Source: Schizochytrium sp. TIO01 (taxonomy: Eukaryota; Sar; Bigyra; Thraustochytrida; Thraustochytriidae). Taken from it: a DNA stretch of 64,000 nucleotides. This document shows positions 17,767-63,081 of the stretch, piece by piece (the first letter of the stretch is position 1; the number at the start of each line of letters is the position of its first letter). The notes below the pieces were generated by a model. It saw only the letters and a program-made list of their open reading frames with translations, searched no databases and was not told the DNA's origin. Position numbers and translations under genes: made by a program. The stretch lies in NCBI GenBank assembly GCA_004764695.1, contig SMSO01000032.1:6530668-6594667 (forward strand), written 5' to 3'.

Positions 17767-20700
17767 CTACTGCTTGATTGTATCGTCAGTATACAAATCA
17801 AAACTAACGTTTTCAGAGATACGCAAGTTGTCTGCATACACAGGCTTGCGCAGAAAATGTTCCATGAACGTGAACAGATCATCAAGCGCGAATGAAATGT
17901 CCAGAAGGCTATCGTTCAAAAGAGGGAAATTACACATTAGTGCAAAATCCTTGGAGGCAAGAATATGTGTCAGGAAGACATCATCACTGTAAGCACGGCT
18001 CAAGACATCCTGCAAAACCTCTTCAAGAACATGAGGGGTAGCTGCTACTGGGCGAAGCACGGGCATAGCATCGCGGCTGTGAGATTTAAAGCGGGCAGCA
18101 ACTACTGCAAATGCGGAAGTCAGCCATCGATTCATTGCAAACAGATCTCTAGCTGTACCAGGACGCATGGCTACTGTCGAGCTACCGTCTGGGTCTCGTA
18201 GGTAGACATAAATTCCTCCTAAGTGGTGAAGCTTCCATAAGGCATGCCAAATTCTTCTGGTACTATTGACTGCCTTTACATATAGATCATAGGGTGCGTC
18301 AAAGTTGATGTGCTGCATAGACTCAAGCTCTGCCGAACGCAAGCGCAAAGTCATGTCAACAAATAAATTTCGAGCAATGCGATCTTCAAAGGACGTAACA
18401 TTTGGAATGTCATGGACGTGAATTCGTGGATGCTCAAACCTATCTGAAAGCATTTGTTCAAACAAGACTATAAAGTCTTGATAAATCTCGCTAAGTGACT
18501 CACGAATAATTGAACGACCACTCGTTGGCCACAAGAATAACGCTAAAGGTACAGCAACACCAGCGCCTAAAAATGATGAGCCAACCACATAGCCACCCTG
18601 AATCCAAATTTCGGTTCGATACGGATCCTCAGTTTGGACAAAAATGACTGCTAAACTCACAACGGTACGTAAGCCTGCAAATGCGATATAAAGATATTTT
18701 GGTGAAACTGTTTTGAACCAAAGATAAGCGCTCAAGGCCACGATTTCAGCGGCATAAAGGATCCATTTGTGTGTTGTGGGATTGCAAGATCCGATGCAAG
18801 CTAACTGCCATGCAATACCGACGACTATGAAACCCATAACTAGCCCAAAAAGACGATGAAAGGTGCGCTCAAGCATCAAACCAGTTTGTGATTTGTATAA
18901 GATGACTTGAAATGTGAAAACTGCATTAACTACCTGCACTGAAGAATACCAAGTTGCTGATGATTCGAGCGTTCCAGGAAGAACCAATAACGTAGTACCT
19001 AAAGCAAATTTGATTGGTGCTTTCCAAGTATAGCCAGCCAGGAAGGAACTCATCCAGTTTTCTGTGCGTGCCATACAACCATTCAAGTGAACATAAAATG
19101 ATTCACGTTTCACAACCTTTCTAGAAGTCACAAATTTCCCCGGAAATGGAAAAGTCATATACCACTCCCTTTTCCAGGATTCACTTCGAATCTGTTGCTC
19201 TTTACGAAGATCCTCGAGAGTACCTTTGTGATGTTTTACGAGCTGGAGCAGTACCAAAATATATGCTGCAAGCTTGGTCCGCTTGACAACGGCCCGGTGA
19301 TTGGGTCGTGAAGCATCATATTTTTTCGTAGCATGGATCGTCAAGTAGCGTTCCATCCAAGACATTGATAGCATATGTAGCTCCTCACTAAGAATCTCAA
19401 GTGCAGCTTGCTCTTGGTCTAGCAATGCTAATGTTGCATTTCTTCCGCTCAGCTCTTGAACTTTTAAAGGTGACTGGCTTGCTAAAATTGCAAAACGGTG
19501 AGCTCCAAGCTCCAGAATTAAATTGATTTGAGTAAGCAAGAGAGGGATACGACGACGTTCCTGAATTTTACGCGCTAAATCTGATTTGTCAGTTTTGAAA
19601 GACTCCATAGCCTCACGTTCTAAAAACATAATTTTTTCTTGCTCCAGAGCCTCTTCCGCCTCTGCAGTGTTTTCGTGAATCCGTGCGTAGTTGCGTTCTA
19701 GCTTCGCCAATAAATCGGTGGCCACTGATCGAGCACATCGAGAGGTTGAAAGAATGCGTTCGTGTCTAGAAATGTACGCCATACCTTCACCCTGGCATGT
19801 AAACCGTGTCTCGAGCAGGGCAAACTCTACCCATCTCTGGGTTCTATGCAAAGTTTCGACATCCTCCTCTCGAGCATCGGACAGGTCCTTCAGGAGACGC
19901 TCAGGCACGCCAAAAACACTCTTTTGAGCTGTTGGATCCAAAGAATTTTCCGCGATATGATCAAAGACGGGTCTAAGGCGCCTTAAAAGCTTTGCATAGG
20001 ACCGGTACCGTTCTTTCATGGAGCCCCTTGCTAAAGGTGTGGCGCGCCATGGAAACAACGCAAGCGTGCCAAACAAATGGAGGGTAAAATGACACCCAAT
20101 TGCAAATGTTGCACCGTCAACCACATCTATAGCTTTACTAAATTTAACGTCCTCTGCGTTTCCTTGCAGATGATAAACCTTCCACACATTCACCTGAATC
20201 AAGTTAAACGTAATGGTCATTACAAGCATAGGGCGCATGATGGCAGGGTTATTTAGTCCTGCATACATTGTCATTAGGTTCAAGATTCCAAGCAGAGTCA
20301 TAAAGGCACCTAGTTGCGATGTTGCAACCCCAATCATAAAGACAGACCAAGTATAAATCAGAGGCCATGAAACCGCGACAGTCAGCACCTGTTGGACTTC
20401 CACTCCAACACATGTCTCATTTAGGGGACGAAGAGCCAACGCAATTACACCGATTGGAATTAAAATTGCCAAACCATCTGCGACATCTCGTACCCGAGCA
20501 AAGAAGGGCATTACTAAAGCAACAGAGGAGATCACAGCATTGCGAATTACAATTTTCATTTCTCGGGAAATTTTGAAGCGAGAGAACCGGGAACTCTTAT
20601 GCTGCACTTCAGAACTGGGAAGCTTAATGGGGAATTTCCGTTTTTCCTCAATTTCACGGAACATGTGACAATATTTGTCACTTATCGAAATATGAATTTC

Positions 20701-21024
20701 GTCGGTGTTGTGAACTTCATGTTCGCTAGGACTATTATTGTCATCGTTTTTTTCAATACAAAAATGTTCTTCTGGCTCAACTCGTTCATCTTGAGGGGAT
20801 ACAATCTCCTCAGGCTTAATAAGATCACGAAGGTAGTTTTGCGCGTATTGATTAACCTTACCTAATACTTGGTTGTCACATACCGCCTCCGAGCTGTCCT
20901 CAAGTGAGACAAGCTCATTAAGTTCTTCCTCTACCTGTTTGTCTAGTCGCCGCTGCGCCTGTAGTAAGCGATGCGAAACTTGATTTCTCCGCTTCCAATC
21001 CTCGAATTTGCTTGTTTTAATCAT
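17767..21024 (-). CDS. G1: FUSC/ArAE-like polytopic membrane protein, clade A
   Basis: First of seven tandem paralogues; 1085 residues, one exon, ATG at 21022-21024. Layout: acidic cytosolic N-terminus (1-155), a hydrophobic bundle of about five or six helices (160-325), a soluble helical region (330-660) and a second bundle (667-835). A soluble C-terminal domain (about 840-1085) follows. The second bundle carries the fusaric-acid-exporter-like pattern, a membrane helix followed by L-E-R-T-F-H-R-L-F-G (ER-x3-R-x2-G), then a hydrophobic helix. FUSC/ArAE and plant ALMT relatives move aromatic or organic acid anions; the substrate here is unknown. A CX3C pair (C743, C747) follows that helix. G1 departs from its sisters in three places: its N-terminal box is KFEDW rather than FQEW-like, WQ replaces WE before CX3C, and RPVFDHIAEN replaces RPVYDRIA. 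It may be the most diverged member of its clade. Confidence 0.8.
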   Translation of the reverse strand: MIKTSKFEDWKRRNQVSHRLLQAQRRLDKQVEEELNELVSLEDSSEAVCDNQVLGKVNQYAQNYLRDLIKPEEIVSPQDERVEPEEHFCIEKNDDNNSPSEHEVHNTDEIHISISDKYCHMFREIEEKRKFPIKLPSSEVQHKSSRFSRFKISREMKIVIRNAVISSVALVMPFFARVRDVADGLAILIPIGVIALALRPLNETCVGVEVQQVLTVAVSWPLIYTWSVFMIGVATSQLGAFMTLLGILNLMTMYAGLNNPAIMRPMLVMTITFNLIQVNVWKVYHLQGNAEDVKFSKAIDVVDGATFAIGCHFTLHLFGTLALFPWRATPLARGSMKERYRSYAKLLRRLRPVFDHIAENSLDPTAQKSVFGVPERLLKDLSDAREEDVETLHRTQRWVEFALLETRFTCQGEGMAYISRHERILSTSRCARSVATDLLAKLERNYARIHENTAEAEEALEQEKIMFLEREAMESFKTDKSDLARKIQERRRIPLLLTQINLILELGAHRFAILASQSPLKVQELSGRNATLALLDQEQAALEILSEELHMLSMSWMERYLTIHATKKYDASRPNHRAVVKRTKLAAYILVLLQLVKHHKGTLEDLRKEQQIRSESWKREWYMTFPFPGKFVTSRKVVKRESFYVHLNGCMARTENWMSSFLAGYTWKAPIKFALGTTLLVLPGTLESSATWYSSVQVVNAVFTFQVILYKSQTGLMLERTFHRLFGLVMGFIVVGIAWQLACIGSCNPTTHKWILYAAEIVALSAYLWFKTVSPKYLYIAFAGLRTVVSLAVIFVQTEDPYRTEIWIQGGYVVGSSFLGAGVAVPLALFLWPTSGRSIIRESLSEIYQDFIVLFEQMLSDRFEHPRIHVHDIPNVTSFEDRIARNLFVDMTLRLRSAELESMQHINFDAPYDLYVKAVNSTRRIWHALWKLHHLGGIYVYLRDPDGSSTVAMRPGTARDLFAMNRWLTSAFAVVAARFKSHSRDAMPVLRPVAATPHVLEEVLQDVLSRAYSDDVFLTHILASKDFALMCNFPLLNDSLLDISFALDDLFTFMEHFLRKPVYADNLRISENVSFDLYTDDTIKQ

Positions 21025-23416: not shown

Positions 23417-26400
23417 TTAGTCTGTTTTGTTGTAAACGTCATATGAGCGGAATTCGGCTGAGCGCAAACGATCAGCATACTTTGGCTTGCGTAGGAAAGC
23501 GTCCAGAAACTCATACAAGCTATCAAGAGCGTTACCGATATCGTGGAAACATTCCGTCATGAGGGGAAGATTAAGCATCAGAGCAAGGTCTCTTGATGAT
23601 ACGATATGGTCAAGAAACACCTCATCATTATAAGCACGGCCGATGGAGTCTTGAAGCATTTCGTTTAGCAAAAATGGCGAAGCCACGATTGGCCGTAGAA
23701 CTGGTAGGGAGTCTCGCTTTGGATTACGAAGCTGGGCAGAAATCCCTACAAATGTCTGGGTTAGCCATCGATGCGCTGCAAAGAAAACACGGGCAGTCTT
23801 CGTATGCATCGTTTTGGCTGGATGTCCTTCGTAATCAATTGAATAGATCCGCAGCCCACCAAGATGATTTAACTTCCACAGGGCTTGCCAGATATGTTGA
23901 GTTGATGTAACTGCTTTTGCATATAGTTCAAACGGCGCGTCGAAGTTATAGTGTTGCATTGATTCCAAATGGGCTGCCCTCAAGTTTATGCCAGACTCGA
24001 CATATAGTGCTCGCGCAACATTATGTTCAAAAGCTGCCACGTCCGGGCGCATAGAATCTAACACATCAGGGTGCTCATAACGATCTGTGAGAACTTGTTC
24101 GCAGATGAGCACAAAGTCATGATAAGATTTAGCTAAGGTTTCACGTAAAAAAATCCTTCCATTGGTAGGCCAAAGGAATAATGAGAGAACCGTTGCTCCT
24201 AATGCACCAATTGCAGAAGATGCAATGACATAGCCAGCGTACCTCCAGATGTCAATATCAGCTGGGTTGTCATCAATAACAAACTCTACCGAGATACTGA
24301 CCATTGTACGTACAGTTGCATATCCTATATATCCATGTTTGGGGATCGCAGTCTTCATCCACATGTAAAATGAAAGAGCCGCAATCTCAAAGGCATACAA
24401 AATCCACTTCGTGTTTGGATCTTTGCAACCATTAGCGCACGCAGCTTCCCATCCAGCACTTATAAGTATTGCACCACATGCAACACCAGTTAATCGATGA
24501 AACACTCGTTCAATGACTAAACCAGCCTGGGTTTTAAAGATTGTAATTTGGAAGGTAAATACCGCGTTTACTAATGCCACAGTGGAATAAACTTCATAGA
24601 ATGACGACAATAAACCAGGAAGTACAAGAAGCGTCGTACCAAGACCTGTTTTGAAAGCTAACTTCCAGGGCAGGTCAGCAAAGAAGTTCATAGCTCCGTG
24701 TTCTAACTTGTCCAGACGCCCCATAGGTTCATACATATTTTCTTTGCTCGAGGGATAGAGCGTGGGAATAATCGAATCATGAAAAGGAAATGTCATAGCC
24801 CACTCGCGGCGTGCACCGCCCGGAATATACTCACGTTCCTGTTTAAATGACCCGATCACCTCATGTTGCGCTTTCACCAGCTTGATGAGAATCAACACAT
24901 AGCTAACCAGCTTTGTGCGCCGGAAAAACGTTTTATCCAAGACGATATTAGAAAACGCCTTTACAGCGTGCGAGCGCAAATAGCGTTCCATCCAGTTTAC
25001 AGCAAGTTTATTGAGCTCACCAGAGAGACTTTCGAGAACAGCCTGTTCTCGGTCCAGGTATCGAAGCATGCGCTCTTTGATATCTACATCAGCAGAAGGT
25101 GTAGCCCTCGTTTTAGCCAATTGAGCCATGCGGTGCGCACCAAGTTCTAAGAGAAGGTTAATCTTTGCGATAAGCTCGGGAATGCGCTTTCTTTCTTCCT
25201 CATGGGAAACGTAAACATCGTTCGTTGAAGTTCCTGGCTGTGTAAGATCATGCATTCTCTGATTGGCGATTTCCTCACTTTCCACATCTGAATCAATCCA
25301 ATCTTTGGTACGATTCTGCTCATATGAATCTGCGGGCGAATTCTCTGAGTTAAAAATACTGTCAGCTGACTCGAGGAAGTCATTTTCATGATTTATAATG
25401 TCAGCAGCAGCATGTCGGGCGTTTCGACTAAGCCCCAAAGTATCGTTGTAACGTCTAAGGTATCGAAGCCCATTGCCGTTAAAAAAGAACCGTGTTTCAA
25501 GAATTGCTGATCCAACCCATTTCTGAGCTAACGGAATTGACGCAGCCTCTTGCTCATGTGCTTCACGAAGAGCGTGTACGAGAGCAGGTTCTAGTCGCAG
25601 TGGTGTTGAGCTTGTCGATGGTGACAAAGTGTGGTTTGCAATGCGGTCATACACGGGTCGAAGCCTTCGCAATGTTGTTGCATAAGAAATATATCTGGTT
25701 CGTAGAGAATCTCGTGCTGGAGGAATAGACGACCACGGGAATACAAGAAGTGAACATGCGTAGTGGACAAAAAACGACAGTGCAAGACCAAACGTAGCGC
25801 CCCCCAGGGCAATGTTGGACTCCTTGAAAGGATCTTCAAAGTCTTCAAAGTTGTAAATTTTCCACACCTGGACGTGGATCACAGAAAATGTAATTGTCAT
25901 GTTGATCATGGTCATGATGCTTGATGGAAAAAGATTACCTAGAAGGTTTGATCCAACAACTCCAGCAAGTAGCAGCCAGACAAACCCAACTAAATTATGA
26001 GCTGCAATCCCAATCATGAATAAAGACCACACATAGAAGAATGGCCACAGGATTACAAAAAGAATGACCTGCTGGTGCTCATGACCCAATGTAGTGAGAT
26101 GAATTGGACGCAATGCAAGCACAAGTGCAAAGATACCAATGAGGAGTGAGGTATTATAGGTAAGAGAAGTGATCTTCGCAAAAAACGGCAACATAGTAGC
26201 TATAGCTGTTGTGATTGCATTGCGTACTAAGACCTTACTCGGTCGACTGAGACTGCAAAGATTACACCGAGGTTGGCCTCCCCTAACTTTTGTTCTTGTT
26301 GGCCTGGGTTTATCTGTGTTACTACTATCTTTGCCGCCTTTAGTTTGTCCACCAATATTGTCTGCAGTGGAGATGCGCGATGATTGCCCACGCTCAAGAT

Positions 26401-26635
26401 CGTGCGAATCTGTCTTTAGGTCGTGTGCCGGCAGTGGTGCTGCCATGTCTTCGAGGCATCTTTTCACGTATTCATCGACATGCCGGAGCCAATCTTCCTC
26501 GCTCTCGTCACGTTTAAGTTCTAGTAGCTGGCCAGTTTCCTCCTCTCCAGCTTCCTGGATTTTACTTTCGAGTCTTTGTGATTCCTGCTCTTCCGCCCAC
26601 TCCTGAAATAGTGGATTTGGCGCCTTCTCGCCCAT
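23417..26635 (-). CDS. G2: FUSC/ArAE-like membrane protein, clade B
   Basis: This 1072-residue product starts at ATG 26633-26635. The N-terminal box is LFQEWAEE (9-16), followed by a charged amphipathic stretch with a V-D-E-Y-V motif and DLERGQ (79-84). A CX2C pair (RCNLC, 123-127) precedes the first bundle (135-300). The second bundle is about 655-825, with VIERVFHRLTG and the CX3C pair C733/C737. Here the spacer residues are ANG; most sisters have an Ile after the first Cys. The central region carries an acidic, Ser/Asp-rich insertion (about 425-480) that the clade A and C proteins replace with coiled-coil. The C-terminal domain keeps YNFDAPFELYAKAV, HLGG and PVLRP. It sits between the two clade A members G1 and G3, so array order does not follow relatedness. 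Confidence 0.8.
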   Translation of the reverse strand: MGEKAPNPLFQEWAEEQESQRLESKIQEAGEEETGQLLELKRDESEEDWLRHVDEYVKRCLEDMAAPLPAHDLKTDSHDLERGQSSRISTADNIGGQTKGGKDSSNTDKPRPTRTKVRGGQPRCNLCSLSRPSKVLVRNAITTAIATMLPFFAKITSLTYNTSLLIGIFALVLALRPIHLTTLGHEHQQVILFVILWPFFYVWSLFMIGIAAHNLVGFVWLLLAGVVGSNLLGNLFPSSIMTMINMTITFSVIHVQVWKIYNFEDFEDPFKESNIALGGATFGLALSFFVHYACSLLVFPWSSIPPARDSLRTRYISYATTLRRLRPVYDRIANHTLSPSTSSTPLRLEPALVHALREAHEQEAASIPLAQKWVGSAILETRFFFNGNGLRYLRRYNDTLGLSRNARHAAADIINHENDFLESADSIFNSENSPADSYEQNRTKDWIDSDVESEEIANQRMHDLTQPGTSTNDVYVSHEEERKRIPELIAKINLLLELGAHRMAQLAKTRATPSADVDIKERMLRYLDREQAVLESLSGELNKLAVNWMERYLRSHAVKAFSNIVLDKTFFRRTKLVSYVLILIKLVKAQHEVIGSFKQEREYIPGGARREWAMTFPFHDSIIPTLYPSSKENMYEPMGRLDKLEHGAMNFFADLPWKLAFKTGLGTTLLVLPGLLSSFYEVYSTVALVNAVFTFQITIFKTQAGLVIERVFHRLTGVACGAILISAGWEAACANGCKDPNTKWILYAFEIAALSFYMWMKTAIPKHGYIGYATVRTMVSISVEFVIDDNPADIDIWRYAGYVIASSAIGALGATVLSLFLWPTNGRIFLRETLAKSYHDFVLICEQVLTDRYEHPDVLDSMRPDVAAFEHNVARALYVESGINLRAAHLESMQHYNFDAPFELYAKAVTSTQHIWQALWKLNHLGGLRIYSIDYEGHPAKTMHTKTARVFFAAHRWLTQTFVGISAQLRNPKRDSLPVLRPIVASPFLLNEMLQDSIGRAYNDEVFLDHIVSSRDLALMLNLPLMTECFHDIGNALDSLYEFLDAFLRKPKYADRLRSAEFRSYDVYNKTD

Positions 26636-28420: not shown

Positions 28421-31400
28421 TTATTCAAGCTTCTTGGAATATATGTCAAAACTGAGTCTTTCAGATGTTCGCAAGCGATCCGCATAAAGTGGTTTTCTCA
28501 GGAAGCGCTCCATGAAGGTAAACAGGTCATCAAGCGCATATGATATGTCTACAAGACTATCATTAAGAAGAGGCAGGTTGCACATGAGCGACAAATCTCG
28601 GGATGCAAGGATACGGTCAAGAAACACATCATCATTATATGCTCGACTCAGAAAATCTTGCAAGATTTCCTGAAGGACATGGGGCGTGGCCGCAACAGGA
28701 CGTAGAACAGGCATTGCATCACGGCGTTTTGTACCGAACCGAGCCGCGACAACAGCAAAGGCTGATGTCAACCATCGATTAACGGCAAAAATATCGCGCG
28801 CAGTGGTTGGTTGCATTGTCACAGCTGCGTTGCCGTCTTTGTCCCGTAGATAAACATATATACCACCCAAGTGGTGCAGCTTCCAAAGAGAATGCCAAAT
28901 GCGGCGCGTGCTGATTACAGCTTTGAGATAGAGCTCGTGAGGAGCATCAAAGTTAATATGTTGCCATGTCTCTAGCTGCGCAGACCTCAGCATTGGAGTC
29001 ATATCACCATAAAGATTACGTGCGATACGGTCCTCGAAAGATGTGATCTTTGGTAGCTCTCGACCCATGTCCTCTGGGTGATCATATCGTTCCGTGAGAA
29101 TCTGCTCAAAAAGAACGATAAAATCCTGGTACGCTTCACATAGACTATCCCGAATCATAGAACGGCCGCTTGACGGCCATATGAAAAGCGCCAACACAAG
29201 AGCCACAGCTGCGCCCACCAGCGATGATGCAACAACATATGAACCTTGCGTCCACACCAGCACACGTGTCGGGCTTTCAGTCTCTGCAAAAACAACTGAA
29301 AGACTGACAATAGTACGGAAGCCTGCAAAGCCAATATAACCGTATTGTGAATGGGCAGTTCTGACATATAAATATAAAGCAATACTCAAGACCTCCGCTG
29401 CGTACAGAATCCATTTGTGGCTATCAGAATCACATCCACGAATGCAGGCAAGCTCCCACGCCACGCCAATAGTAATGAAACCTAAGATTAAACCAAGGAG
29501 ACGCTGCAACGTGCGCTCGATCACTAGACCCGTTTGTGTCTTGAAAAGAATTACCTGGAAGGTAAAGACAGCGTTGGTTAGCTGGACAGAGGAATACCAC
29601 TGGTAAGAGGACTCAAGTACACCAGGAAGGGCCAGCAATGTTGTGCCGAGTGCAAACTTGAAGGATACCTTCCAGAGGGTGCTTGAAAGGAAGTTAACCA
29701 GCATATCTTCGGAACGCGGAATACATCCAAGGATGGGCGTGTAAAATGACTCACGGCGCACTACATCTACAGATGATAAGAACCGACGAGGAAAAGGCAC
29801 TGTAAGAATCCATTCCCTCAGCCACGACCTTGATTTAGAATGATCTTCTGTGGAAAGTGCAGTCCATGCATTCTTATTCAGCTTGGTGAGTTTGAGCAGT
29901 ACGAGAATGTAAGCTGCAAGCTTAGTACGCTTAAAGATCATGCGCTGGTTGGGTCTGTGCGTATCATGGCCTCGACTCGCGTGCATACGGAGATAGCGAC
30001 CCATCCATGATAATCCGAGCTCATATAACTCTCCACCTAACTTATCTAGAAAAACTTGCTCCCTGGCTAGCATTGTAAACGCGTTCGCTCGTGTCTCAAC
30101 TTCAGATTTATCACCCGGCTCTGAGCTAGAGAGGATGGCGAGGCGGTGAGCTCCAATCTCAAGTAGCAAGTTGATTTGTGTAATGAGTAAAGGGATCCGC
30201 CTTCGTTCTCTCACTTTGCGATCTAACTCTGCCTTTTCGAGTTGAAATTCTTCTGTAGCTTCTCTTTCCAGAAAGAGAGCCTTTTCTTGCTCTAATTCCT
30301 CCTCAGCTTCATCGAGGTTTGAGCGAGCACGGGTGTAGGAGCGTTCGAGTTTAGTAAGGAGATCGGTAGCCGCAGAGCGCGCACAGCGTGTGATGGAAAG
30401 TGATTGTTCATATCGCGATACATAAGCCATACCCCGACCGCCTAATCCAAATCTTGTCTCTAGAAGAGCGTTCCCAAGCCAATTCTGTGCTACCTGAATT
30501 GAAGCGACTTCCTGCGCACGGGCCTCAGCAAGCTTGTCAAGGAGATCTGCTGGGATACTGAAAGGGGTTTCTTGTGCTGTCGGGTCCAACGTATAAACAG
30601 CAATACGATCATACACTGGACGCAACCTACGAAGGAGCTTCGCATAGGAGCAGTAACGATTGTTCAGAGAGTTCCTTGCTGGCTTTGTGGCCTGCCATGG
30701 GAAAATCATCACGGCACCCACAAAGTGCAAAAAATAAGGCAGCGAGATGCTAAAGGTTGCACCGTCTAGAATATCAATTGAAGTGCGAAACTTTGTGTCC
30801 TCGTCAGTGAGCCCTTTAAAGTTGTAAGTACGCCATATATTAATCTGTATAAGCGTAAAAGTAATTGATTCGAGAACAACACAAAGAGTAGTAAAGTTAT
30901 TACTCAAAAGCGCAAGCATCCCAAACATAGTTGCAAGGCCAAAAAGGAACATGAAAACTCCCAAGTTGCTTGTACCTACAGCAATCATGAAGCAAGACCA
31001 TGCGTAGAATAGAGGCCATGTAAAAACAAATGACAGCACCTGCTGCACCTCTACACCAATGCACGTATTGTTTAATGGTCGCAAAGCAAGAATCAGAACA
31101 AAAATGGGGGTCAAAATAGAGGAGCCCTGTGAAATGTCCCGGACCCTCGACAGAAAAGGCATAAGAAGAGCTATGGTGGTTACAATGGCGTCACGAATTA
31201 AGATCATTTGCAGGCGTGTAAGGCCTGGAAGTTTTCCAGTAAGAGTCAAATGCCTTTTGGAAAGTTCTGCTGTTGATCGATGTCTAGTAAACCCGCGCTT
31301 CTTTGTGCTTTTGCTATCTTCTGAAGGCGGAGATCCGAGTGAGCGGCCTGAACCAAATTTACCTCCATCTTCGCCACGCTCAAGGTTCAGGTTCAATTCG

Positions 31401-43122: not shown

Positions 43123-43298
43123 CCACTGACCAGACTCCAGTCTCAGTCCTGGCGAGCTGGGCCTGCTGCCCTTCTTCCTGCCCGCCCGAGACACTCTCCG
43201 CACGGTGCCTGGCGCAGCCTTCGCCTCGGACCTGTGAATTAACTAGCTGACGCCTGAAGAGTCTTACGAGCGAGCGAATATATAAGTTTGCATTCCTG

Positions 43299-43349
43299 AT
43301 GCGATGCAATGCAATGCGATGCGATGCGATGCGATGCGATGCGATGCGT
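43299..43349. repeat. (GATGC)n pentamer repeat
   Basis: About ten copies of GATGC/AATGC pentamers, soon followed by GCTT tetramers near 43362-43378 and 43440-43455. Confidence 0.85.
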
Positions 43350-47287: not shown

Positions 47288-50200
47288 TTAAACGATTTTG
47301 TAAAGGTCATAGGAGACGCGTTCAGCTTCGCGCAAGCGCGCTGCATAAATCGGTTCACGTAAGTATGCTTCCATAAGTTCATAAACCCCATCAAGTGATC
47401 TACTAATTTCGTGCAAGCAATCACCCAAAAGCGGAAGATTGAGCATAAGGGCGAGATTTCGAGAAGATACTACACTCTCCAAGAAAAGTTCATCCCGATA
47501 TGCCCGGCTTACGAAATCATGCAGAATTGCACCGAGCAGTCTTGGAGACGCAACAATCGGACGGAGGGCTGGGCTTGACCGTCGTTGCCGATTGTTCAAT
47601 TGAAAAGCAATTGCAGAGAAGGATGTAGTTAACCATCTGTTGGCTGCAAAGAAAGCACTTGCAGTAGTCCTATCCATGGTCTTTGCGGGTTGACCATCCT
47701 TGTCGCGAGAATATATCATAACACCACCAAGATGATTAATCTTCCAAAGGGAAAGCCACACTTGCTGAGAACTCTTTACTGCTTTTGCATATGCAGGGAG
47801 AGGCGCGTCAAAGTTAATTTTTTGCATATCCTCAAGTTGAATCGATCGCAACAGGAGACCAGTCTTAAAGTATAATAACTGGGCAAGTCTATGCTCATAT
47901 GCAGCCAGCTGAGAGGTGCCGATGGTGATGTCCTCTGGATGCTCATACTCATTGGTCAAGATCTGCTCCGTAATGAGGGTAAAATCATGGTACGCATCCG
48001 AGATAGCTAAGCGAATAGATTCCCGTCCATTTTTAGGCCACACAAGAGTCGCCAGAATAAGAGCTCCTCCTGCACCCACAGCGGTTGATGCAAGCACATA
48101 TCCACCTTCGCGCCAGATATTGTTTGTTGCGGGATCTGACAAAGTTACAAAGCCAGTAGAGATACTTGCTAGAGTACGCATCATACTGAAGCCAATGTAG
48201 CCCCACCCTGGCCACTTGGTTTTAAACCACAGGTAGCAAAAGAGCGCAACAACCTCAAAGCCATAAAGGATCCATTTGCGGTTATCATCTGTACAGCCAT
48301 TGATACATGCTAACTCCCACGCAATACCAATAACAATACAACCAACGAAGACGCCAACAATACGTTGAATGACACGTTCAATCACAAGGCCTGTTTGAAT
48401 CTTAAATAAAACCACTTGGAAAGCGAAGATACCGTTCAGAAACTGCACGACTGTGTACAATTGATATGACCGCTCCAATAGGCCAGGTAAGATCATTAAG
48501 GTTGTGCCTAGCGCAAATTTGAGAGCGAGTTTCCATTCATCTGATGAAAAGAAATTTATAATTTTGTATTCCCAACGGGCAACCATAGAGCCCCATGGTT
48601 TGTAGAAATTCTCCCGGTCCGTGTTTTCTGAAGACGGAACAATCACATCATGAAAAGGATATGTTAAATGCCATTCCTTACCAGCCAATGAAGAATCTGG
48701 TGTAGACTCCTTTTCGAGCTGCTTCACAACATTTTTTTGCTCTTGAACGAGTTTGAGAAGAATGAGTACATAACTGACTAGTTTTGTACGCTTAAAGAAA
48801 ACGTGCTTGTCTGGGGAACCTTCAAAAGATTGGTCATATGCTTTCCCCGCATGCGACCGAAGGTAGCGTTCCATCCACGAAATAGAAAGATCTTCGAGAT
48901 CTTGAGCAATTTTCTCCATTGCGTCTTGCTCGCGTGCCAGGAACCCAAAAGTACGTTGGCGCTCCTCATCCATAGATTTATCCGAAGGCTTCATGCCCAC
49001 CAACTTTGCCATACGATGACCACCGAGCTCTAGCAATAAACTCAATTTAGCCATAAGAATAGGAATATTTTCGCGCTCAAGCGTTTTACGCGCAGCATCT
49101 TGAGAGTTTATTGTAGCGTCCTCGATACAATCCTGCTTGATAAAGGTCTCTCGATGGTACTCCAAAACTTCAGATGGTCCCTCCTCATCACCAGATGGTT
49201 CAAAGTCAGCACGTGAGTTAATCACATCACCAGCAGCTGCACGAGCTATACGTGAGAGACTCAAGGAACTTTCGTATCGCATCAAATAGCGGTAACCATC
49301 GCCTTTGAAGAGAAAACGCGTCTCTAAGAGCGTGGAATTAACCCATTTCTGCATAACAGGAATTGATCCTAGCTCTTTAAGACGCGCTTCATCTAGCTGG
49401 TCCAATAATTCCTTTTCAATCAACGTTTGTTCTAAATTGCCCCTTGGGTCCAGCGTGTGCGTGGCGATACGGTCATAAACAGGGCGTAGATTCCGCAACA
49501 TACTAGCGTAAAGGGAGTAATGATTCCGAAGGGCAGATCGCGTTTCGCTTCCGGTTGACCATGGAAAGATCGTCATAGCTCCAAGCCAATGCAGGAAGTA
49601 GGCTGCTGCAAGACCGAAGGTTGCACCACCAAGGGCAATCATGGCTTCTTTAAATGGTTGCTCGTAGTCATGCATATTGTAGATCTGGAAGAGGGACATG
49701 TGTATAATTGAGTAGGTAATAGTGGGACCCAAAAGTGTCATCATACCTGAAGCGTTGAAGGACTGCACAGAAAAGGCAATCATAACGCCAACAGAAAAGA
49801 GAATCAGGTACCCCGTGATATTTCGGGGCGAAATAGCGAGAATTAGGAGAGTATAAGCTACATAAAATGGCCAAGAAGAAATCAACAGTATGAGCTGATG
49901 GCATTCATGGCCGATGGAGGTCATATGCAAAGGACGCAATGCCAGAATCATTGCCAGAATTGGCAATAAAAGCGATGTTCTGTAGGATATTGTTTGAATA
50001 GGTTCGAAGAATGGAAGCAGGAGTGCGATTGTTGATACAACTGAGGTACGCAGGAGAATTTTTTCTGCGAGGCCAAAAGTAAATCTCCTTTTTTTAATAG
50101 GTGGTGGAGGAGGTGCCGTCTGTTCCTCGCCAGCCTCTCCCTTTTCAAGATCATGCATGGAATGACCAGGAATTTTCATGTCTGCCAGAGATTTCCGGGC

Positions 50201-50368
50201 ATACTGATCAACTTTCTCAAGCCAGTTGTCGCCCGCAGAAATATCATGGCGGAAGGTCCGGTATTCGCGACGCTCTTGCTCACCAGCTTCTGCAAGCTCA
50301 CTCTCGTGGCGGCGTTCCGCTTCATCTTCAGTCCAATCCTGAAAGAGTGCATCCGCCCGGTCAGCCAT
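47288..50368 (-). CDS. G5: FUSC/ArAE-like membrane protein, clade B
   Basis: At 1026 residues this is the shortest member; ATG at 50366-50368. Box LFQDWTEDE (8-16); VDQYARKSLADM (53-64); DLEKGEAGEE followed by a six-proline run (85-90) and a basic patch KKRR just before the first bundle (about 104-270). Second bundle about 609-780, with VIERVIQRIVG and C688/C692 (CINGC). The LELGAHR block of the soluble region reads LELGGHR only in this protein. The first bundle contains SPRN between two helices, as in G4. The C-terminal domain has KINFDAPLPAYAKAV, WLSLWKINHLGG and SPALRPIVASP; the Val of PVLRP is replaced by Ala, unlike all others. These substitutions suggest mildly relaxed constraint rather than loss, since the frame is intact over its full length. 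Confidence 0.8.
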   Translation of the reverse strand: MADRADALFQDWTEDEAERRHESELAEAGEQERREYRTFRHDISAGDNWLEKVDQYARKSLADMKIPGHSMHDLEKGEAGEEQTAPPPPPIKKRRFTFGLAEKILLRTSVVSTIALLLPFFEPIQTISYRTSLLLPILAMILALRPLHMTSIGHECHQLILLISSWPFYVAYTLLILAISPRNITGYLILFSVGVMIAFSVQSFNASGMMTLLGPTITYSIIHMSLFQIYNMHDYEQPFKEAMIALGGATFGLAAAYFLHWLGAMTIFPWSTGSETRSALRNHYSLYASMLRNLRPVYDRIATHTLDPRGNLEQTLIEKELLDQLDEARLKELGSIPVMQKWVNSTLLETRFLFKGDGYRYLMRYESSLSLSRIARAAAGDVINSRADFEPSGDEEGPSEVLEYHRETFIKQDCIEDATINSQDAARKTLERENIPILMAKLSLLLELGGHRMAKLVGMKPSDKSMDEERQRTFGFLAREQDAMEKIAQDLEDLSISWMERYLRSHAGKAYDQSFEGSPDKHVFFKRTKLVSYVLILLKLVQEQKNVVKQLEKESTPDSSLAGKEWHLTYPFHDVIVPSSENTDRENFYKPWGSMVARWEYKIINFFSSDEWKLALKFALGTTLMILPGLLERSYQLYTVVQFLNGIFAFQVVLFKIQTGLVIERVIQRIVGVFVGCIVIGIAWELACINGCTDDNRKWILYGFEVVALFCYLWFKTKWPGWGYIGFSMMRTLASISTGFVTLSDPATNNIWREGGYVLASTAVGAGGALILATLVWPKNGRESIRLAISDAYHDFTLITEQILTNEYEHPEDITIGTSQLAAYEHRLAQLLYFKTGLLLRSIQLEDMQKINFDAPLPAYAKAVKSSQQVWLSLWKINHLGGVMIYSRDKDGQPAKTMDRTTASAFFAANRWLTTSFSAIAFQLNNRQRRSSPALRPIVASPRLLGAILHDFVSRAYRDELFLESVVSSRNLALMLNLPLLGDCLHEISRSLDGVYELMEAYLREPIYAARLREAERVSYDLYKIV

Positions 50369-53603: not shown

Positions 53604-54043
53604 CCACTTAATTCAGAAGTTGCATATGTCTCAAAGCTAGGTTTGGTGATTTCTATACCGAATGGATTTAGCATCGTCCCATTTCCAATTTGAAAGAAAG
53701 AAAAAAAAAAAAAAAACTAAAAAGAAGGAAAGAAAACAAGAGAGTAGACGTTTGCGTTGCCACTATAAAGCCTTTGAATTAGCGTCATGCCCATACAGCA
53801 AGGAGACGGGTGATTGCTTGCTCTGTGAATGTGCATAGCTTTTTGCTTCCGTGGTACAGTAGTAACAAATGCCACCATTAAGGACATTATAGATTTTCAC
53901 TTTGTTTTTCATTTTAAAAAATTAACTCAAGAGCATATGGAAAAAAACAAAAAATGTAGCGTGTGTCAATATCTGCAAGATTTACACAAGCGAGATGTAG
54001 GGGTGATGATTGGTATAGACATCAAAGGTTTTCTCTTCGGCAT
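53604..54043. repeat. Diverged direct repeat, right unit
   Basis: The counterpart of the left unit. It comprises the presumed G6 3' flank and the last 20 codons of G6, so it is probably the parental copy. It is interrupted by a poly-A run at 53700-53716 that the left unit lacks. Confidence 0.7.
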
Positions 54044-57000
54044 CCCGGAGATCTAAAGCATAGGTTGGTTTGTTCAGAAAATGCTCCATGAAGGTAAAAA
54101 CCTCGTCCAGGGAATGTGAAATAATCGTCAAGTTCTGCGCGAGTAAAGGCAAGCTCAGGAGCTTGGACAGATCATTTGATTGAAGTAAATGATCAATAAA
54201 TTTCTTGTCTTGGTAGGCTTGGCGCAGAAAACCATGAACCATACTTTTCAACAAAGGTGGAGTTGCTGCCAAGGGCCGCAACACAGGGAGAGAATCACGA
54301 CGATCCGAAAGCAAACGCGCTGACACTGCTGTAAAGGCTGATGTGAGCCATCTATTTACCGCAAAAAAGGCTTGCGCAGTTTCATGTTGCATAGCCTCAA
54401 CTGTATTACCTTGGGCATCGCGCATATAAATGCGAATGCCTCCAAGGTGATGCAGCTTCCACAAAGAGTGCCAAATGCGACGGGTGCTCTCGACTGCTTT
54501 GACGTACTCTTCATGAGGGGCATCATAGCGAATTCTTTGCTGAGTTTCAAGGAGGGCTGATCGCAATTTGCCTGCCATATTCACGTATAACGTGGATGCA
54601 ATTTGGTCTTCAAATGCAGCCACTTTTTGCGACGTGCATTCTGACATTTCTGGATGCTTGAGCCGCTCCGTGAGAACCTGCTCGTACAAAAGAATGAAGT
54701 CATGATATACTTGAGCTAGATTTTGACGAATCAGCAATCTCCCACTAACGGGCCAGATACAAAGTGCTAAGAACAAAGCACCAACAGCACCAATTACGCT
54801 CGAAAGCATTACATAGCCCGCAGTTATCCAATAGTAAGAATGCGTTCTTTCCGAGGCATTAAAATAAATAATCACCATACTAGTAATGGTCCGCAACAGA
54901 GAGAAGAACGCGTATGCATAATTTGGTTTCGTTTGCTTGATAAAAAAATATGCGCCCAAGGCGAGCATTTCAAAAGCAAAAAATATCCACTCATGGTTTT
55001 CCGTACCACAGCCACCAATGCAAGTGAACTCCCATGCAATGCCGGCAAGAACTAGGCCTGCAGCAATCCCACCTAAACGATGAAAAAATCTCTCGATAAT
55101 CAGACCTTCCTGAGTTTTCAATAGAACAACCTCAAATGTAAAGATTGCATTGATGAGCTGTACCGTAGAGTAAGCTTGATAAGAAGAGGGAAGCATAGCC
55201 GGGAGTGAGAGCATGGCTGTTCCAAAGGCAAATTTTAAAGACCCTTTCCATCCAAGGTCCGAAAAATATTTGACCATTGCGGACTCTAATCGACCAACCG
55301 TTCCCTCCGGTGGCACATAGAGGGCGCGCCGCGCTGCGTACTGTGCCCCTTTTAGGAGCTGATCAACAAATGGAAACGTTGATGTCCATTCTTTTTTCCA
55401 ATTATTTGGATTGGCGCGACTCTCGGCCTGAAATGTTAGCAATGTGTCTTCATGTGCCTTGACGAGTTTGACCAGAGCACGCACATATGTGATGAGTTTG
55501 ATGCGTCGAAAGAATGCAGCAACGAGTTCTGAAGATCTACTTTCTGCCAGAGTTGCATGCATGCGGATGTAACGTTTCGTCCAGCTCACTGCAAGTTTAT
55601 CAAGCTCTTCAGCTATGGAGTTAAGGATTTCTTGCTCTTTCAATAACACACTAAAGTCTTCTGTGTAGGTATTGTCTCCGGGGCGAGACCTGGCAAGGTC
55701 TGAAAAGCGATGCGCTCCAAGCTCCAGCAACAAGCTCAACTCCGTTATCAGAACAGGTATGCGATCTAGCTCAAGCTTACGCTGCTCATCATTTTCTTGA
55801 GAATGGGCATTCTTATCACGAAGAGTTGATCCCTCGTTTTCGAAAAGCTCCTTCTCGTCGCGAAGTTCGTTGGCAAGTTTCTCGAAGTCCTTGTTCGTCA
55901 TACCAAGGATATCAGATGCCGTACTTCGTGCAATGCGGGTTAGATGCAAACTTTTGTCGTATCGATCGAGATAGGCCATACCTTCTCCATTGAACTTGAA
56001 ACGAGTCTCTACCAGAGCGGCCTCTAACCAGCTTTGCGTCAGAGTAATAGAGTTAATTTCCTGATCTCGAACCTCGTCAAGTTTTTGAAGCACGTCTGCC
56101 TCGATGCAAGAATCATCATACTTTGATTCGTGCAAAGGGTCAAGTGTATACACAGCAATTCGATCATACACAGGCCGAAGTTTATGGAGAAGACTGGCAT
56201 ATGCAGAGTATCTCGCACCAAGCGCATCCTGCAAGCGGCCAGTAGCCATAAAAGGAAAGAAAATAAAGGAAGCAACAAGGTGCATGGCTATCGGCATTGC
56301 CATAGAAAAGGTACCATTATTAAGAATGGTAATACTTTTTGCAAAAATTTCATCTTCCGAGGTGAGACCTTTGAAATTACCAGCTGAGTACATTGAAACG
56401 GCTGTGACGGAAAAGTTAATGAGCTGGACTACCGTGGTTGGGAGATTTGGAGGGTGTTTCCATACCAATAAAATGAGGCCTCCTACTGCAAGCGCTTGAA
56501 GTGTCATGTACCCGCCTAAATTGTGAATAGTAACAGCCACCATGAACACGGCATAGGCATAAATGCATGGCCAAATAGCAATAAAGATCATTGCACTGTT
56601 TACCTCCATACCAATGCTTGTGTGTTGAAGTGGTCGCAACGTTAGTACGACAGTATACACTGGAATAAGATTTGTGAGCTGCCCTGCAAGATGACGAATT
56701 GTGACTGAGAATGGCAAAAGAAGGCCAATGATGCACACGAGTACATGTCGGATAAGGTTTTTATCTGCTTGCGAAAGACTGTGAATTTTCTGATACAAGA
56801 AACCCCATGGAGTATGGGCACTGGATAGTAAAGCTTCTTTCTTTTCGTGTACTGATTTAGCGGTATGGGAGTCCCCGCTCTCGATGTCTGACGCCGGCCC
56901 ATGACTGGAGCCCTTAACAAGTTTTGATTCTATCGGCGAAAGATCATGCTTTGACACAACAGACTCAAAGCCTGACATATTACGCAAGTAATCTCGAGCA

Positions 57001-57164
57001 TATTGCTCCACCCCGTTTGGTGAGGCACCTATTTGACTTCTAATGCGTTCAGCTTCTTCACGCTCTGCATTGTTGGCATCTTGCAGCTCACTGCGCAAGC
57101 GATCTTCCCTCCTTTCTTGGTCAAAGTCCTCAAACACTGCATCTGCTGCAGCATTGTCCGTCAT
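53982..57164 (-). CDS. G6: FUSC/ArAE-like membrane protein, clade C
   Basis: A 1060-residue product; ATG at 57162-57164. The N-terminal box is VFEDFDQERRED (10-21), with Phe in place of Trp. EQYARDYLRNMSGFES (53-68) follows; the serine-rich segment has DIESGD (93-98). First bundle about 137-303; second about 640-812, with IIERFFHRLGG and C715/C719 (CIGGC). JM box RPVYDRIAVYTLDP. The soluble region has a clade-specific charged helix (about 425-470) and RYIRMHA where the others have RYLRxHA. The C-terminal domain is typical, with RRDSLPVLRPLAATP. The tail is some eight residues longer than in clades A and B and ends Y-I-S-L-V, with Ser at -2 and Val at 0, compatible with a class I PDZ ligand. 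Its 3' flank is duplicated immediately downstream. Confidence 0.8.
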   Translation of the reverse strand: MTDNAAADAVFEDFDQERREDRLRSELQDANNAEREEAERIRSQIGASPNGVEQYARDYLRNMSGFESVVSKHDLSPIESKLVKGSSHGPASDIESGDSHTAKSVHEKKEALLSSAHTPWGFLYQKIHSLSQADKNLIRHVLVCIIGLLLPFSVTIRHLAGQLTNLIPVYTVVLTLRPLQHTSIGMEVNSAMIFIAIWPCIYAYAVFMVAVTIHNLGGYMTLQALAVGGLILLVWKHPPNLPTTVVQLINFSVTAVSMYSAGNFKGLTSEDEIFAKSITILNNGTFSMAMPIAMHLVASFIFFPFMATGRLQDALGARYSAYASLLHKLRPVYDRIAVYTLDPLHESKYDDSCIEADVLQKLDEVRDQEINSITLTQSWLEAALVETRFKFNGEGMAYLDRYDKSLHLTRIARSTASDILGMTNKDFEKLANELRDEKELFENEGSTLRDKNAHSQENDEQRKLELDRIPVLITELSLLLELGAHRFSDLARSRPGDNTYTEDFSVLLKEQEILNSIAEELDKLAVSWTKRYIRMHATLAESRSSELVAAFFRRIKLITYVRALVKLVKAHEDTLLTFQAESRANPNNWKKEWTSTFPFVDQLLKGAQYAARRALYVPPEGTVGRLESAMVKYFSDLGWKGSLKFAFGTAMLSLPAMLPSSYQAYSTVQLINAIFTFEVVLLKTQEGLIIERFFHRLGGIAAGLVLAGIAWEFTCIGGCGTENHEWIFFAFEMLALGAYFFIKQTKPNYAYAFFSLLRTITSMVIIYFNASERTHSYYWITAGYVMLSSVIGAVGALFLALCIWPVSGRLLIRQNLAQVYHDFILLYEQVLTERLKHPEMSECTSQKVAAFEDQIASTLYVNMAGKLRSALLETQQRIRYDAPHEEYVKAVESTRRIWHSLWKLHHLGGIRIYMRDAQGNTVEAMQHETAQAFFAVNRWLTSAFTAVSARLLSDRRDSLPVLRPLAATPPLLKSMVHGFLRQAYQDKKFIDHLLQSNDLSKLLSLPLLAQNLTIISHSLDEVFTFMEHFLNKPTYALDLRDAEEKTFDVYTNHHPYISLV

Positions 57165-59871: not shown

Positions 59872-62800
59872 TTACATGATTGTAATCACTGGATGCTCGT
59901 GCGTGTATACGTTGAAGCTTGCCTGTTCGGACAGGCGGAGATCCTTAGCGTACGTGGGGGTGAGAAGAAAGTGCTCCAAAAAGGTATAAACTTCATCGAG
60001 GGAGTGGGAAATAAGGACCAAATTTTGCGCCATCAAAGGGAGGTTGAGCAACAACGATAAATCATCTGATTCCAACAGGTTCTTGATAAATATGTCGTCA
60101 TGATAAGCCTGTCGAAGGAAAGCATGGACCATGTCGGTCAATAGAGATGGTGTTGCTGCAAGGGGGCGTAGCACTGGGAGTGAATCTCGACGCTCAGATA
60201 CTAAACGGGCGGAAACAGCAGTAAAGGCAGATGTGAGCCAGCGATTTATGGCGAAATACGCACGCGCAGTCTCGGGAAGCATGCCATCTACAGCTTCGCC
60301 ACAGCGATTTCGAAGGTATATACGAATGCCACCGAGGTGATGCATCTTCCACAACGAATGCCAAATTCGTCGAGTGCTCTCGACAACTGCCACGTACTCA
60401 TCATAAGGCGCATCATAATGTAAGTTCTGCTTTGTTTCAAGCTTAGCAGAGCGCAATTTCATGGCCATGTTCACGTATAATGTGGTTCCAATTTGATCCT
60501 CAAAAGCAGTGATCTTCGGATCTTCTGATTCAGACATAGAGGGATCTCGAAAACGCGCTGTGAGGACCTGCTCGTATAAAAGAATGTAATCGTGGAAAAC
60601 TGTTGCAAGAGTCTTACGAATAAGCGATCGCCCACTCACAGGCCAGATGCAGAGGGCTAAGAACAAAGCACCAACCGCGCCGATGACTGATGAAAGCATG
60701 ACATACCCGGCATCAAGCCAATAGTATAATTGTGTAGGTTCCGCAACACTAAAATAAACTACAACCATGCTCGTAATGGTGCGCAATAAAGAGAAAAACG
60801 CATAAGCCTGCATTGGCATAATTTGCTTGATATAAAAGTACACACCAAGTGCAATAAGTTCAAATGCAAGAAAGATCCACTGTCGATTTGCCTGCCCGCA
60901 TCCGCCGATACAGGTAAACTCCCAAGCAATTCCAGCTAAAACTAATCCTGCAGCAATACCACCCAGACGGTGCAGAAAACGTTCTATTACAAGCCCCGCC
61001 TCTGTTTTAAGAAGAACAACCTGGAATGTGAAAATTGCATTGACAAGCTGTACCGTTGAGTACACCGCGTACGACGTCGAAAGCATGCCTGGCAAAGATA
61101 GCATGACCGTACCAAATGTATACTTAAGTGACCCTTTCCATCTTGAATCGTTGAAGAAACGGACCATCAAGGCTTCGCATCGACCTAAAAACGTTTCTGG
61201 AGCCTCGTAGAGTGCAGAGCGCGCTGCTGCTTGTTTCCCGTTGATTAGCTTGTCCACAAAGGGAAATGTATATTTCCATTCTTTTTGCCAATCCTTTTTA
61301 TCGCGAAGGCTTTCTGTGCGAAATGTAATTAATGTGTCTTCATGTGCTTTAGTGAGCTTGAGCATAGCTTGAATGTATGTAATGATTTTAATTCGCTTGA
61401 AAAAGGCTGTTACCAGCTCTGTGGAGCTTTCATATGCCATTGCTGCATGCATGCGAACATAGCGTCGAGTCCAAGTTACCGCGAGGCTTTCGAGCTCAGA
61501 TGCAATTTTATTCATGATTTTTTGTTCACTTTCGAGATCTTCAAACTCTTTCTCCAAACCTTTACAACCTGGGTCCGATCCAGCTAACTTTGCGAGCCGA
61601 TGAGCGCCAAGCTCCATAAGGAGGCTTAATTCAGTGATTAGCATTGGAATTCGTTTAAGCTCGACCTTATGACGCTCATTCTCTTCATCATTAACACAGA
61701 TATCTAGAGCTGCAGTTTGCTTCCTGAAGAGACGCTTGTCAGCGTGCAAGTCACGAGCCAGCTCGTTAAAATCTTTAGAACGAGCACCAAGGATATCAAG
61801 CGCTGTGCTGCGTGCGATGCGTGTCATGTGCAAACTACGTTCGTAGCGGTCTAAGTAAGCCATACCTTCACCATTGAATTTAAACCGTGTCTCAACTAAA
61901 GCAGCCTCAAACCAAGTCTGGGCAAGAGCAATTGAACTGATATCCCGTTGGTGAGCTTCTTCAAGCTCCTGAAGTAGTTCTGCATCCACATTTGAAGAGT
62001 CATAGTTGGCTGCGTTTGCTGGATCAAGCGAATGCATAGCAATGCGATCATAGATTGGTCGCAACTTATGCAATAATGAAGCATGAGCTGAGTATCGGGA
62101 ACTCAAAGCTGCTTTCATTCGGGTTACGCCTAAAAATGGAAAAAAGATGAAAGCCGCGGCGAGATGCAAGGCATAAGGGATCCCCATTGCAAAAGTACCA
62201 TAGTTGAGAATCTTAATGCTTGCGTCAAAAATTTCCTCATCAGTACTGGATGAGGACTTAAAGTTTGCGTTGGCGAAAATCGCAACAGCAATGAGAGAGA
62301 AGTTAACTAGCTGGATAATTGTGGCTGTTAAGTTTGTAGGATGCTTCCAGACCATGAGAATGAGCACCATGATTGCAAGCGATTGCAATGTAGCATAACC
62401 GCCAAGGTTATTTAAGGAGACTGACGCCATGAAAACTGTGTACGCATAAATCAGGGGCCAGATGATCATAAAAATAAACGAGTGATTTACCTCCATGCCA
62501 ATGCATGTTTGCTGCAAAGGGCGGAGCGGAAGGACGACAGTGTAAACAGAAATCAAATTGGTAAGGCTTCCACCATAAAGTCGAATAGTAGGAGAATATG
62601 GCAGGAGGAGACCCACAACACAGACTATCACATGTCTGATGATGTTTTTCTCAATTTGAGTAAGCCCCATAACTTTATTCCACAGCTGTTTGAAAGGTCT
62701 TAAACAAACTGGGGTTTCCTTTGCTTTTTTGTCTTCCGCTTCTCCATTTGCTGCAGGCGTTGCTGCTGGGGACTCTGATTCAAACCCAGATGATGATTCT

Positions 62801-63081
62801 GGCCGATGAAGTCGACCAGAACGCCCTCCCTTGTCTAATCGATAAAGGCTGCGTTGTGAGATAAGGGACTCAAATCCAGATATATTCCTTAAATAATTTC
62901 GAGCATAGTGTTCCACGCCTTCCTCAAGATCAGATTTGTCAATCTGCTCTTCGATCCGAGAGGCCGCTTCTCGCTCATCATTAACAGCCTCCCTGAGTTC
63001 TGTTCGAAGGCTTTCTTCACGCTTGTCTTCATCATATTCCTGAAACGGGGCTTCTGCCCCTCCTACATCTTGCTGAGCCAT
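59872..63081 (-). CDS. G7: FUSC/ArAE-like membrane protein, clade C
   Basis: The last array member: 1069 residues from the ATG at 63079-63081 (the frame extends six codons further only to a GTG). Box PFQEYDEDKREE (12-23), with Tyr in the aromatic position; EHYARNYLRNISGFES (57-72), nearly the G6 version. The usual DLExGE segment is replaced by RLDKGG (81-86). First bundle about 147-317; second about 650-820, with VIERFLHRLGG and C724/C728 (CIGGC). JM box RPIYDRIAMHSLDP. The C-terminal domain reads NLHYDAPYDEYVAVV where others have NFDAP, then IWHSLWKMHHLGG and RRDSLPVLRPLAATP. The tail ends V-I-T-I-M, again with Ser/Thr at -2. It is clearly the sister of G6 and adjacent to it, consistent with a simple tandem duplication. 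Confidence 0.8.
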   Translation of the reverse strand: MAQQDVGGAEAPFQEYDEDKREESLRTELREAVNDEREAASRIEEQIDKSDLEEGVEHYARNYLRNISGFESLISQRSLYRLDKGGRSGRLHRPESSSGFESESPAATPAANGEAEDKKAKETPVCLRPFKQLWNKVMGLTQIEKNIIRHVIVCVVGLLLPYSPTIRLYGGSLTNLISVYTVVLPLRPLQQTCIGMEVNHSFIFMIIWPLIYAYTVFMASVSLNNLGGYATLQSLAIMVLILMVWKHPTNLTATIIQLVNFSLIAVAIFANANFKSSSSTDEEIFDASIKILNYGTFAMGIPYALHLAAAFIFFPFLGVTRMKAALSSRYSAHASLLHKLRPIYDRIAMHSLDPANAANYDSSNVDAELLQELEEAHQRDISSIALAQTWFEAALVETRFKFNGEGMAYLDRYERSLHMTRIARSTALDILGARSKDFNELARDLHADKRLFRKQTAALDICVNDEENERHKVELKRIPMLITELSLLMELGAHRLAKLAGSDPGCKGLEKEFEDLESEQKIMNKIASELESLAVTWTRRYVRMHAAMAYESSTELVTAFFKRIKIITYIQAMLKLTKAHEDTLITFRTESLRDKKDWQKEWKYTFPFVDKLINGKQAAARSALYEAPETFLGRCEALMVRFFNDSRWKGSLKYTFGTVMLSLPGMLSTSYAVYSTVQLVNAIFTFQVVLLKTEAGLVIERFLHRLGGIAAGLVLAGIAWEFTCIGGCGQANRQWIFLAFELIALGVYFYIKQIMPMQAYAFFSLLRTITSMVVVYFSVAEPTQLYYWLDAGYVMLSSVIGAVGALFLALCIWPVSGRSLIRKTLATVFHDYILLYEQVLTARFRDPSMSESEDPKITAFEDQIGTTLYVNMAMKLRSAKLETKQNLHYDAPYDEYVAVVESTRRIWHSLWKMHHLGGIRIYLRNRCGEAVDGMLPETARAYFAINRWLTSAFTAVSARLVSERRDSLPVLRPLAATPSLLTDMVHAFLRQAYHDDIFIKNLLESDDLSLLLNLPLMAQNLVLISHSLDEVYTFLEHFLLTPTYAKDLRLSEQASFNVYTHEHPVITIM

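Follow-up and report, generated by a model that had tools for sequence, protein, structure and literature searches.

Plant ALMT proteins are described in PMC11842843 as one-bundle chains that form dimers, and in the same text ALMT9 has a single pore contributed by two protomers, with transmembrane helices TM2 and TM5 of each as its lining and malate bound by arginines. FusC and AaeB of bacteria are presented, in PMC7682875, as pumps for fusaric and p-hydroxybenzoic acid, and PMC10490231 makes the case for placing ALMTs in the fusaric-acid-resistance group and not in ArAE proper. Here we describe a row of genes for large membrane proteins of this general kind in Schizochytrium sp. TIO01, most of which lies in a stretch of 64,000 nucleotides (hereafter, the window; contig positions 6530668-6594667 in a genome of 64.06 Mb on 37 contigs). 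We propose, with a probability of roughly 0.62, that these genes form a nine-member tandem array encoding two-bundle, single-chain pseudo-dimers of the FUSC/ArAE/ALMT superfamily, which would export organic or aromatic acid anions and would have been kept by diversification.

Seven open reading frames (ORFs) of 1026-1085 amino acids (aa) were read from the window, all uninterrupted from ATG to stop on the minus strand (F1 to F7; coordinates are collected in the table below). To this extent the original prediction, which had proposed seven large paralogues on one strand with unbroken frames, described the locus accurately, but its count was too low. A genome search with F5, which scored the best 12 candidates, recovered nine full-length members in a single row on the minus strand, along with one distant match on another contig, C35. 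F8 and F9, whose lengths are counted from the first ATG, follow a short distance beyond the end of the window, with contig and strand unchanged; seven can thus be dismissed as the full count, and the nine genes cover approximately 61 kb (window-equivalent 17767-78930). A full-length alignment of their products has 159 invariant columns and pairwise identities of 35-65%, which excludes chance and bears out the earlier description of a common layout and common sequence blocks. The order in each chain is an N-terminal tail, membrane bundle 1, a helical cytosolic domain, membrane bundle 2 and a second helical cytosolic domain. The relative on C35 (L016:2589-5111, plus strand, near a UDP-glucose:glycoprotein glucosyltransferase gene) is also a two-bundle protein, of 810 aa; it is 23-30% identical to array members over the matched parts, its profile alignment with the array (probability 99.0%) extends over most of its length, and it is the only copy outside the array among the matches listed.

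The family placement draws on profile-profile comparison, on a conserved motif and on structure search. Bacterial FUSC proteins were represented by a set of 54, including AaeB and YccS of E. coli, of which 21 were left after a 70% identity filter. Aligned with these 21 by hhalign, the nine-protein array profile reached a probability of 93.4% and a ten-protein profile 95.3%, as against 1.3 and 2.0% for reversed controls, while separate YccS and AaeB sub-profiles gave 72-86% (reversed, 0.3-0.6%). In the best alignments, bundle 2 of the array was matched both to its YccS counterpart and to AaeB bundle 1, and bundle 1 of the array to that of the combined set, a cross-pairing that is expected if all of these bundles are related. 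When 31 single E. coli proteins, hand-picked from annotated regions, were ranked (ranks being among the nine best per profile), the four FUSC members took places 1, 2, 4 and 5 with the nine-protein profile, 1, 2, 3 and 5 with the ten-protein profile, and 1, 4, 6 and 7 with a profile of the C-terminal half; the N-terminal half placed YccS first and MdtO third, with AaeB and YdhK outside the nine best. The pattern R-x-x-G-x-x-x-G is considered typical of FUSC, and it occurs within bundle 2, in alignment with YccS, in 10/10 proteins of the array family. Three invariant residues of F5, R669, G672 and G676, coincide with its counterpart in YccS, and W777-P778, where bundle 2 ends, coincide with a W-P of that protein; AaeB is without the motif arginine at the aligned place. 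In a model of the second half of F5, the first eight PDB matches found by Foldseek were all ALMT channels, with structure-alignment identities of 9-16% (the VIA lists re-align Foldseek's matches only and so add no further family). This low-confidence model suggests that the second half may fold like ALMT, as a membrane bundle followed by a helical cytosolic domain.

Curated profiles describe these proteins less well. Pfam matches of relevance were confined to F4 and F5, with none for the other window proteins, F8 or F9, and in the protein scan no FUSC_2 match at E 1 was seen in the six window proteins other than F5, nor in F8 or F9. A six-frame FUSC_2 search scored the array at 24.0 and 22.6 bits, under the cut-off of 25.6. 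The Pfam ALMT profile, searched against the genome, matched only on contig C13, where a protein of 585 aa counted from the first ATG (L036:3622-5442, minus strand) scores 48.2 bits and resembles GmALMT12 at E 4.5e-6. ArAE_2_N (PF10337, cut-off 23.5 bits), searched over the whole genome, gave nothing at the array, its lone match being a stop-containing stretch of another contig that scored below the cut-off, ArAE_2 not being searched by itself. The longer form of the bundle 2 pattern, derived from the array, was matched by neither the C13 protein nor any of the four FUSC proteins of E. coli, and a PDB sequence search with F1 returned nothing relevant.

Several results weigh against the proposed placement, and against the pseudo-dimer in particular. 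Even the best protein, F5, at 19.8 bits, stayed below the FUSC_2 (PF13515) cut-off, and F4, the sole array protein listed, at 10.2 bits, below that of ALMT (PF11744, 20.6 bits). A combined FUSC profile in HMMER passed its threshold only with F4 (E 2.6e-6) and the C35 protein (E 8.1e-7); conversely, all four E. coli FUSC proteins stayed out of reach of the array profile (best E 0.11), and a PDB search with a seven-protein profile returned nothing relevant. In the single-protein ranking the best probability was 20%, margins were small and the unrelated ActP was interleaved, and with the half-profiles more unrelated E. coli proteins were interleaved than with the full ones. The array profile did not match the ALMT-like C13 protein (2.0%). 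The N-terminal half alone gave 6 and 17% against the two FUSC sub-profiles and 77% against the combined profile (reversed, up to 3.7%), the last value falling on FUSC bundle 2, the wrong bundle, with bundle 1 at 24%; hhalign detected no internal repeat between the N- and C-terminal halves (0.3%). In view of these last two observations, the pseudo-dimer is a proposal only. As to structure, the two models are weak, with predicted local distance difference test (pLDDT) scores of 57 and 58 (57.8 for the second half) and predicted template modelling scores of 0.39 and 0.49; root-mean-square deviations from ALMT are 5-14 Å, Foldseek E values range from 7e-4 to 7e-2, and the C-terminal domain is also matched by PhoU bundles.

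Taken together, homology of the array to bacterial FUSC proteins is upheld, as judged from sequence, at the level of the FUSC/ArAE/ALMT superfamily and outside every curated family tested, and the grouping of ALMTs with fusaric-acid-resistance proteins, as argued in PMC10490231, suits this placement. The first half (bundle 1), placed by profile only, may be a member as well, but its assignment is weaker than that of the second. The earlier family call, FUSC/ArAE-like with ALMT as relatives, therefore holds for the superfamily by profile-profile comparison and structure search and does not extend to FUSC_2, ALMT or ArAE_2_N as curated, or with equal force to bundle 1. That both kinds of search might instead have pointed outside FUSC/ArAE/ALMT had been foreseen as a refutation; both land inside it, and we regard as very improbable the notion that these are unrelated large helical membrane proteins with a likeness to FUSC and ALMT in composition and helix packing only.

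On the interpretation that we prefer, each chain would consist of two ALMT-protomer-like halves, and both bundles would pair, like two ALMT protomers, about a single central path; since the ALMT9 pore is built from two protomers, a chain with two such halves could form a pore of this type alone. By analogy with ALMT and with FusC/AaeB, organic or aromatic acid anions would then move out of the cytosol, through either the plasma membrane or a membrane of the vacuole type. The conserved core would consist of bundle 2 and the C-terminal domain, bundle 1 and the N-terminal tail, which vary more, would set substrate or regulation, and the array may have been retained because its copies took up different substrates or conditions, and not for dosage alone. 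By these analogies, sequence and model would fit a channel and a coupled exporter alike. The strongest alternative, though we find it rather unlikely, is that of anion channels serving ion balance, volume or signalling, in the manner of plant QUAC1/ALMT12 and ALMT9, and not pumps for the efflux of toxic or waste acids. The nearest solved folds, as modelled, are indeed ALMT channels, and among the Pfam-scanned neighbours of the array no gene for a membrane-fusion protein was recognised, unlike the arrangement in bacterial aaeXAB; yet the best sequence profiles are those of two-bundle bacterial FUSC proteins, some of which are exporters, and nine diverged copies suggest a variety of substrates. 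A wider generalization, possible but offered tentatively, would see in the array the expansion of a labyrinthulomycete-type branch of ALMT-like transporters, fused and pseudo-dimeric, in which one conserved and one diversified half would provide a repertoire of anion exporters with differing substrates or switches.

Divergence among the copies bears on why so many were kept. In a tree of the nine proteins F1 groups with F3, F4 with F5, the latter two with F2, and F6 with F7, all at 100/100; inclusion of the very distant C35 protein lowers support for F4 and F5 to 80/100 and leaves the position of F2 unfixed. The alternation along F1-F2-F3-F4 would fit one duplication of a two-gene block. In five computed pairs the proportion of differing synonymous sites (pS) is 0.77-0.83, which is saturated, and that of nonsynonymous sites (pN) is 0.23-0.37, which argues that the copies are old and under purifying selection; with open frames in 9/9 genes, and pN well below pS in these pairs, the suggestion that the whole array is functional appears sound. 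Mean identity is lowest in the N-terminal tail (27%) and rises through bundle 1 (37%), the middle domain (41%) and bundle 2 (51%) to the C-terminal domain (52.5%). This pattern of a conserved bundle 2 and C-terminal domain beside a varied bundle 1 and N-terminus, together with saturated synonymous sites, points to old diversification and not to recent dosage. An array of nine near-equivalent exporters, raising capacity for one substrate (for example, in organic acid overflow or the disposal of a waste aromatic acid), would account for the layout, blocks and 159 invariant columns common to all nine, and for their position on a single strand at a single locus. Dosage arrays are usually young or homogenised, whereas these copies are only 35-65% identical with saturated synonymous sites in the computed pairs, and the 400 bases upstream of the genes have no 7- to 9-mers in common beyond those of shuffled sequences; we consider this explanation improbable. 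Of the two causes first put forward for the expansion, dosage thus recedes, and diversification of substrate or regulation seems to fit better.

The window genes are separated by six gaps of 1.8-8.1 kb. Searches of 112.3 kb by tblastn, with the nine array proteins, the C35 protein, AaeB and YccS as queries, revealed no further copies, fragments or pseudogenes (best stray match, E 0.21), and such remnants can be dismissed for the gaps. In a codon-usage scan trained on the array, the six gaps score at most 22, as compared with 146-211 for array genes and with 51 for the clathrin light chain gene, a genuine small gene; three of the six score 18-22, and no shuffle (20 per gap) exceeded the reporting limit of 15. 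Pfam scans of 21 of the 64 gap ORFs of at least 75 codons gave nothing above cut-off, which dismisses a gene of known family as far as these ORFs show; the largest gap ORF (39201-39830, plus strand) has a match of 15.4 bits, below its cut-off of 25.9. A small amount of unrecognised coding sequence, and also spliced genes with short exons, may reside in the gaps. The earlier view that no other convincing gene intervenes is hence sustained for unspliced genes, but it does not cover spliced ones, nor the three gaps that score above shuffles. Tracts of simple repeats with 8-, 4- and 5-base units occupy window positions 42653-43348, within the 8-kb interval that separates F4 from F5. The GC content of the window is near 45%; Rfam gave nothing above gathering scores, and ARAGORN, run with the bacterial code, found no tRNA in it. 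Recognised neighbours are a PfkB kinase, which we take to be adenosine-kinase-like, a TPR protein, a Ser/Thr kinase, clathrin light chain and, on the far side of F9 at a distance of about 13 kb, a PI3/PI4-kinase.

Table. Array genes, features of F5 and recognised neighbouring genes (window numbering)
Feature	Coordinates	Strand	Remarks
F1	17767..21024	-	1085 aa; sister of F3 (100/100)
F2	23417..26635	-	1072 aa; joins F4+F5 (100/100) in nine-protein tree
F3	28421..31675	-	1084 aa; sister of F1
F4	36134..39229	-	1031 aa; weak Pfam ALMT match, 10.2 bits
F5	47288..50368	-	1026 aa; FUSC_2 19.8 bits, below 25.6 cut-off; modelled protein
F6	53982..57164	-	1060 aa; sister of F7 (100/100)
F7	59872..63081	-	1069 aa; followed by F8 and F9 beyond the window
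F8	64699-67872 (window-equivalent, stop codon excluded)	-	1058 aa
F9	75763-78930 (window-equivalent, stop codon excluded)	-	1056 aa
F5 membrane bundle 1, aa 100-267, about six predicted membrane helices	49568..50071	-	Hydropathy of nine-protein alignment; low-confidence model; nine-protein profile aligned to bundle 1 of bacterial FUSC
F5 membrane bundle 2, aa 611-775, six model helices (four by hydropathy alone)	48044..48538	-	Aligned to YccS bundle 2 and ALMT membrane part
Conserved stretch G-L-V-I-E-R-x3-R-x2-G-x3-G, aa 660-676 of F5	48341..48391	-	In 10/10 homologues of the genome
F5 C-terminal helical domain, aa 781-1025, putative ALMT/PhoU-like helical bundle	47294..48028	-	Model, structure search
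Clathrin light chain gene	8575-9162	+	Pfam, 79 bits
Iml2/TPR39-like protein gene	12116-13987	-	Pfam; adjoins array
PfkB-family kinase gene	15442-16509	-	Pfam; adjoins array

Beyond the array, 108 stretches in viral contigs fit a pattern, and none encodes a relative; in PHROGs the best row for F5, F6 and the C35 protein was a family of unknown function (E 0.0046), and a search for plasmid relatives of F5 gave one row only (E 6). A bacterial FUSC tandem array was observed in the bacterial genome G053 (C1:407425-416895), with four FUSC_2 matches in frames of 712 to 740 codons over approximately 10 kb of one strand. The Schizochytrium genome also encodes a PfaA-type polyunsaturated fatty acid (PUFA) synthase, above the NCBIfam cut-off and scoring 1157 bits together with the neighbours that share its frame. 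A frame of 5651 codons with repeated PfaA-like matches, presumably polyketide-synthase-like, lies at C3:857186-871321, and PUFA-synthase matches on opposite strands at C4:591651-617209.

The kind of protein is known, and it is the row of nine genes that is unusual. Such an array was unreported in the titles and abstract beginnings among the matches listed for thraustochytrid FUSC, eukaryotic ArAE, FUSC tandem expansion, thraustochytrid tandem transporters and BRE4, although this does not prove that none has been described. A solved structure seems to be lacking for two-bundle FUSC/ArAE proteins, and no two-bundle relative came up in sequence queries of the PDB with AaeB and with the array profile. 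Nine intact natural variants of a single scaffold with one conserved and one varied half would offer a direct test of the pseudo-dimer idea and of the determinants of substrate choice, in a group, the thraustochytrids, that is used for omega-3 production. Otherwise the array is perhaps best viewed as a regular, if striking, cluster of transporter genes.

Compared with known systems, the array differs from plant ALMTs (AtALMT1, AtALMT9, GmALMT12/QUAC1), which have one bundle per chain and act as dimers, whereas each array chain carries two. The ALMT-like protein of C13, in the same genome, shares the FUSC/ALMT superfamily with the array but has one match to the ALMT membrane part and none to the array profile. 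Fungal ArAE proteins of the endoplasmic reticulum type (ArAE_2_N/ArAE_2, BRE4-like) have a two-bundle eukaryotic layout of about 1000 aa; the likeness is one of size and layout, and the array differs in having no ArAE_2_N match. AaeB, which adjoins a membrane-fusion protein and AaeX, neither of them recognised near the array, is shorter at 655 aa, as is YccS at 717 aa, against 1026-1085 aa for the window proteins. In their two bundles per chain, bacterial FUSC/ArAE proteins (YccS, AaeB, MdtO and YdhK of E. coli; FusC) are nonetheless built like the array, and they share with it the aligned R-x-x-G-x-x-x-G and bundle-end W-P, as seen in YccS, and FUSC profile probabilities of 72-95%.

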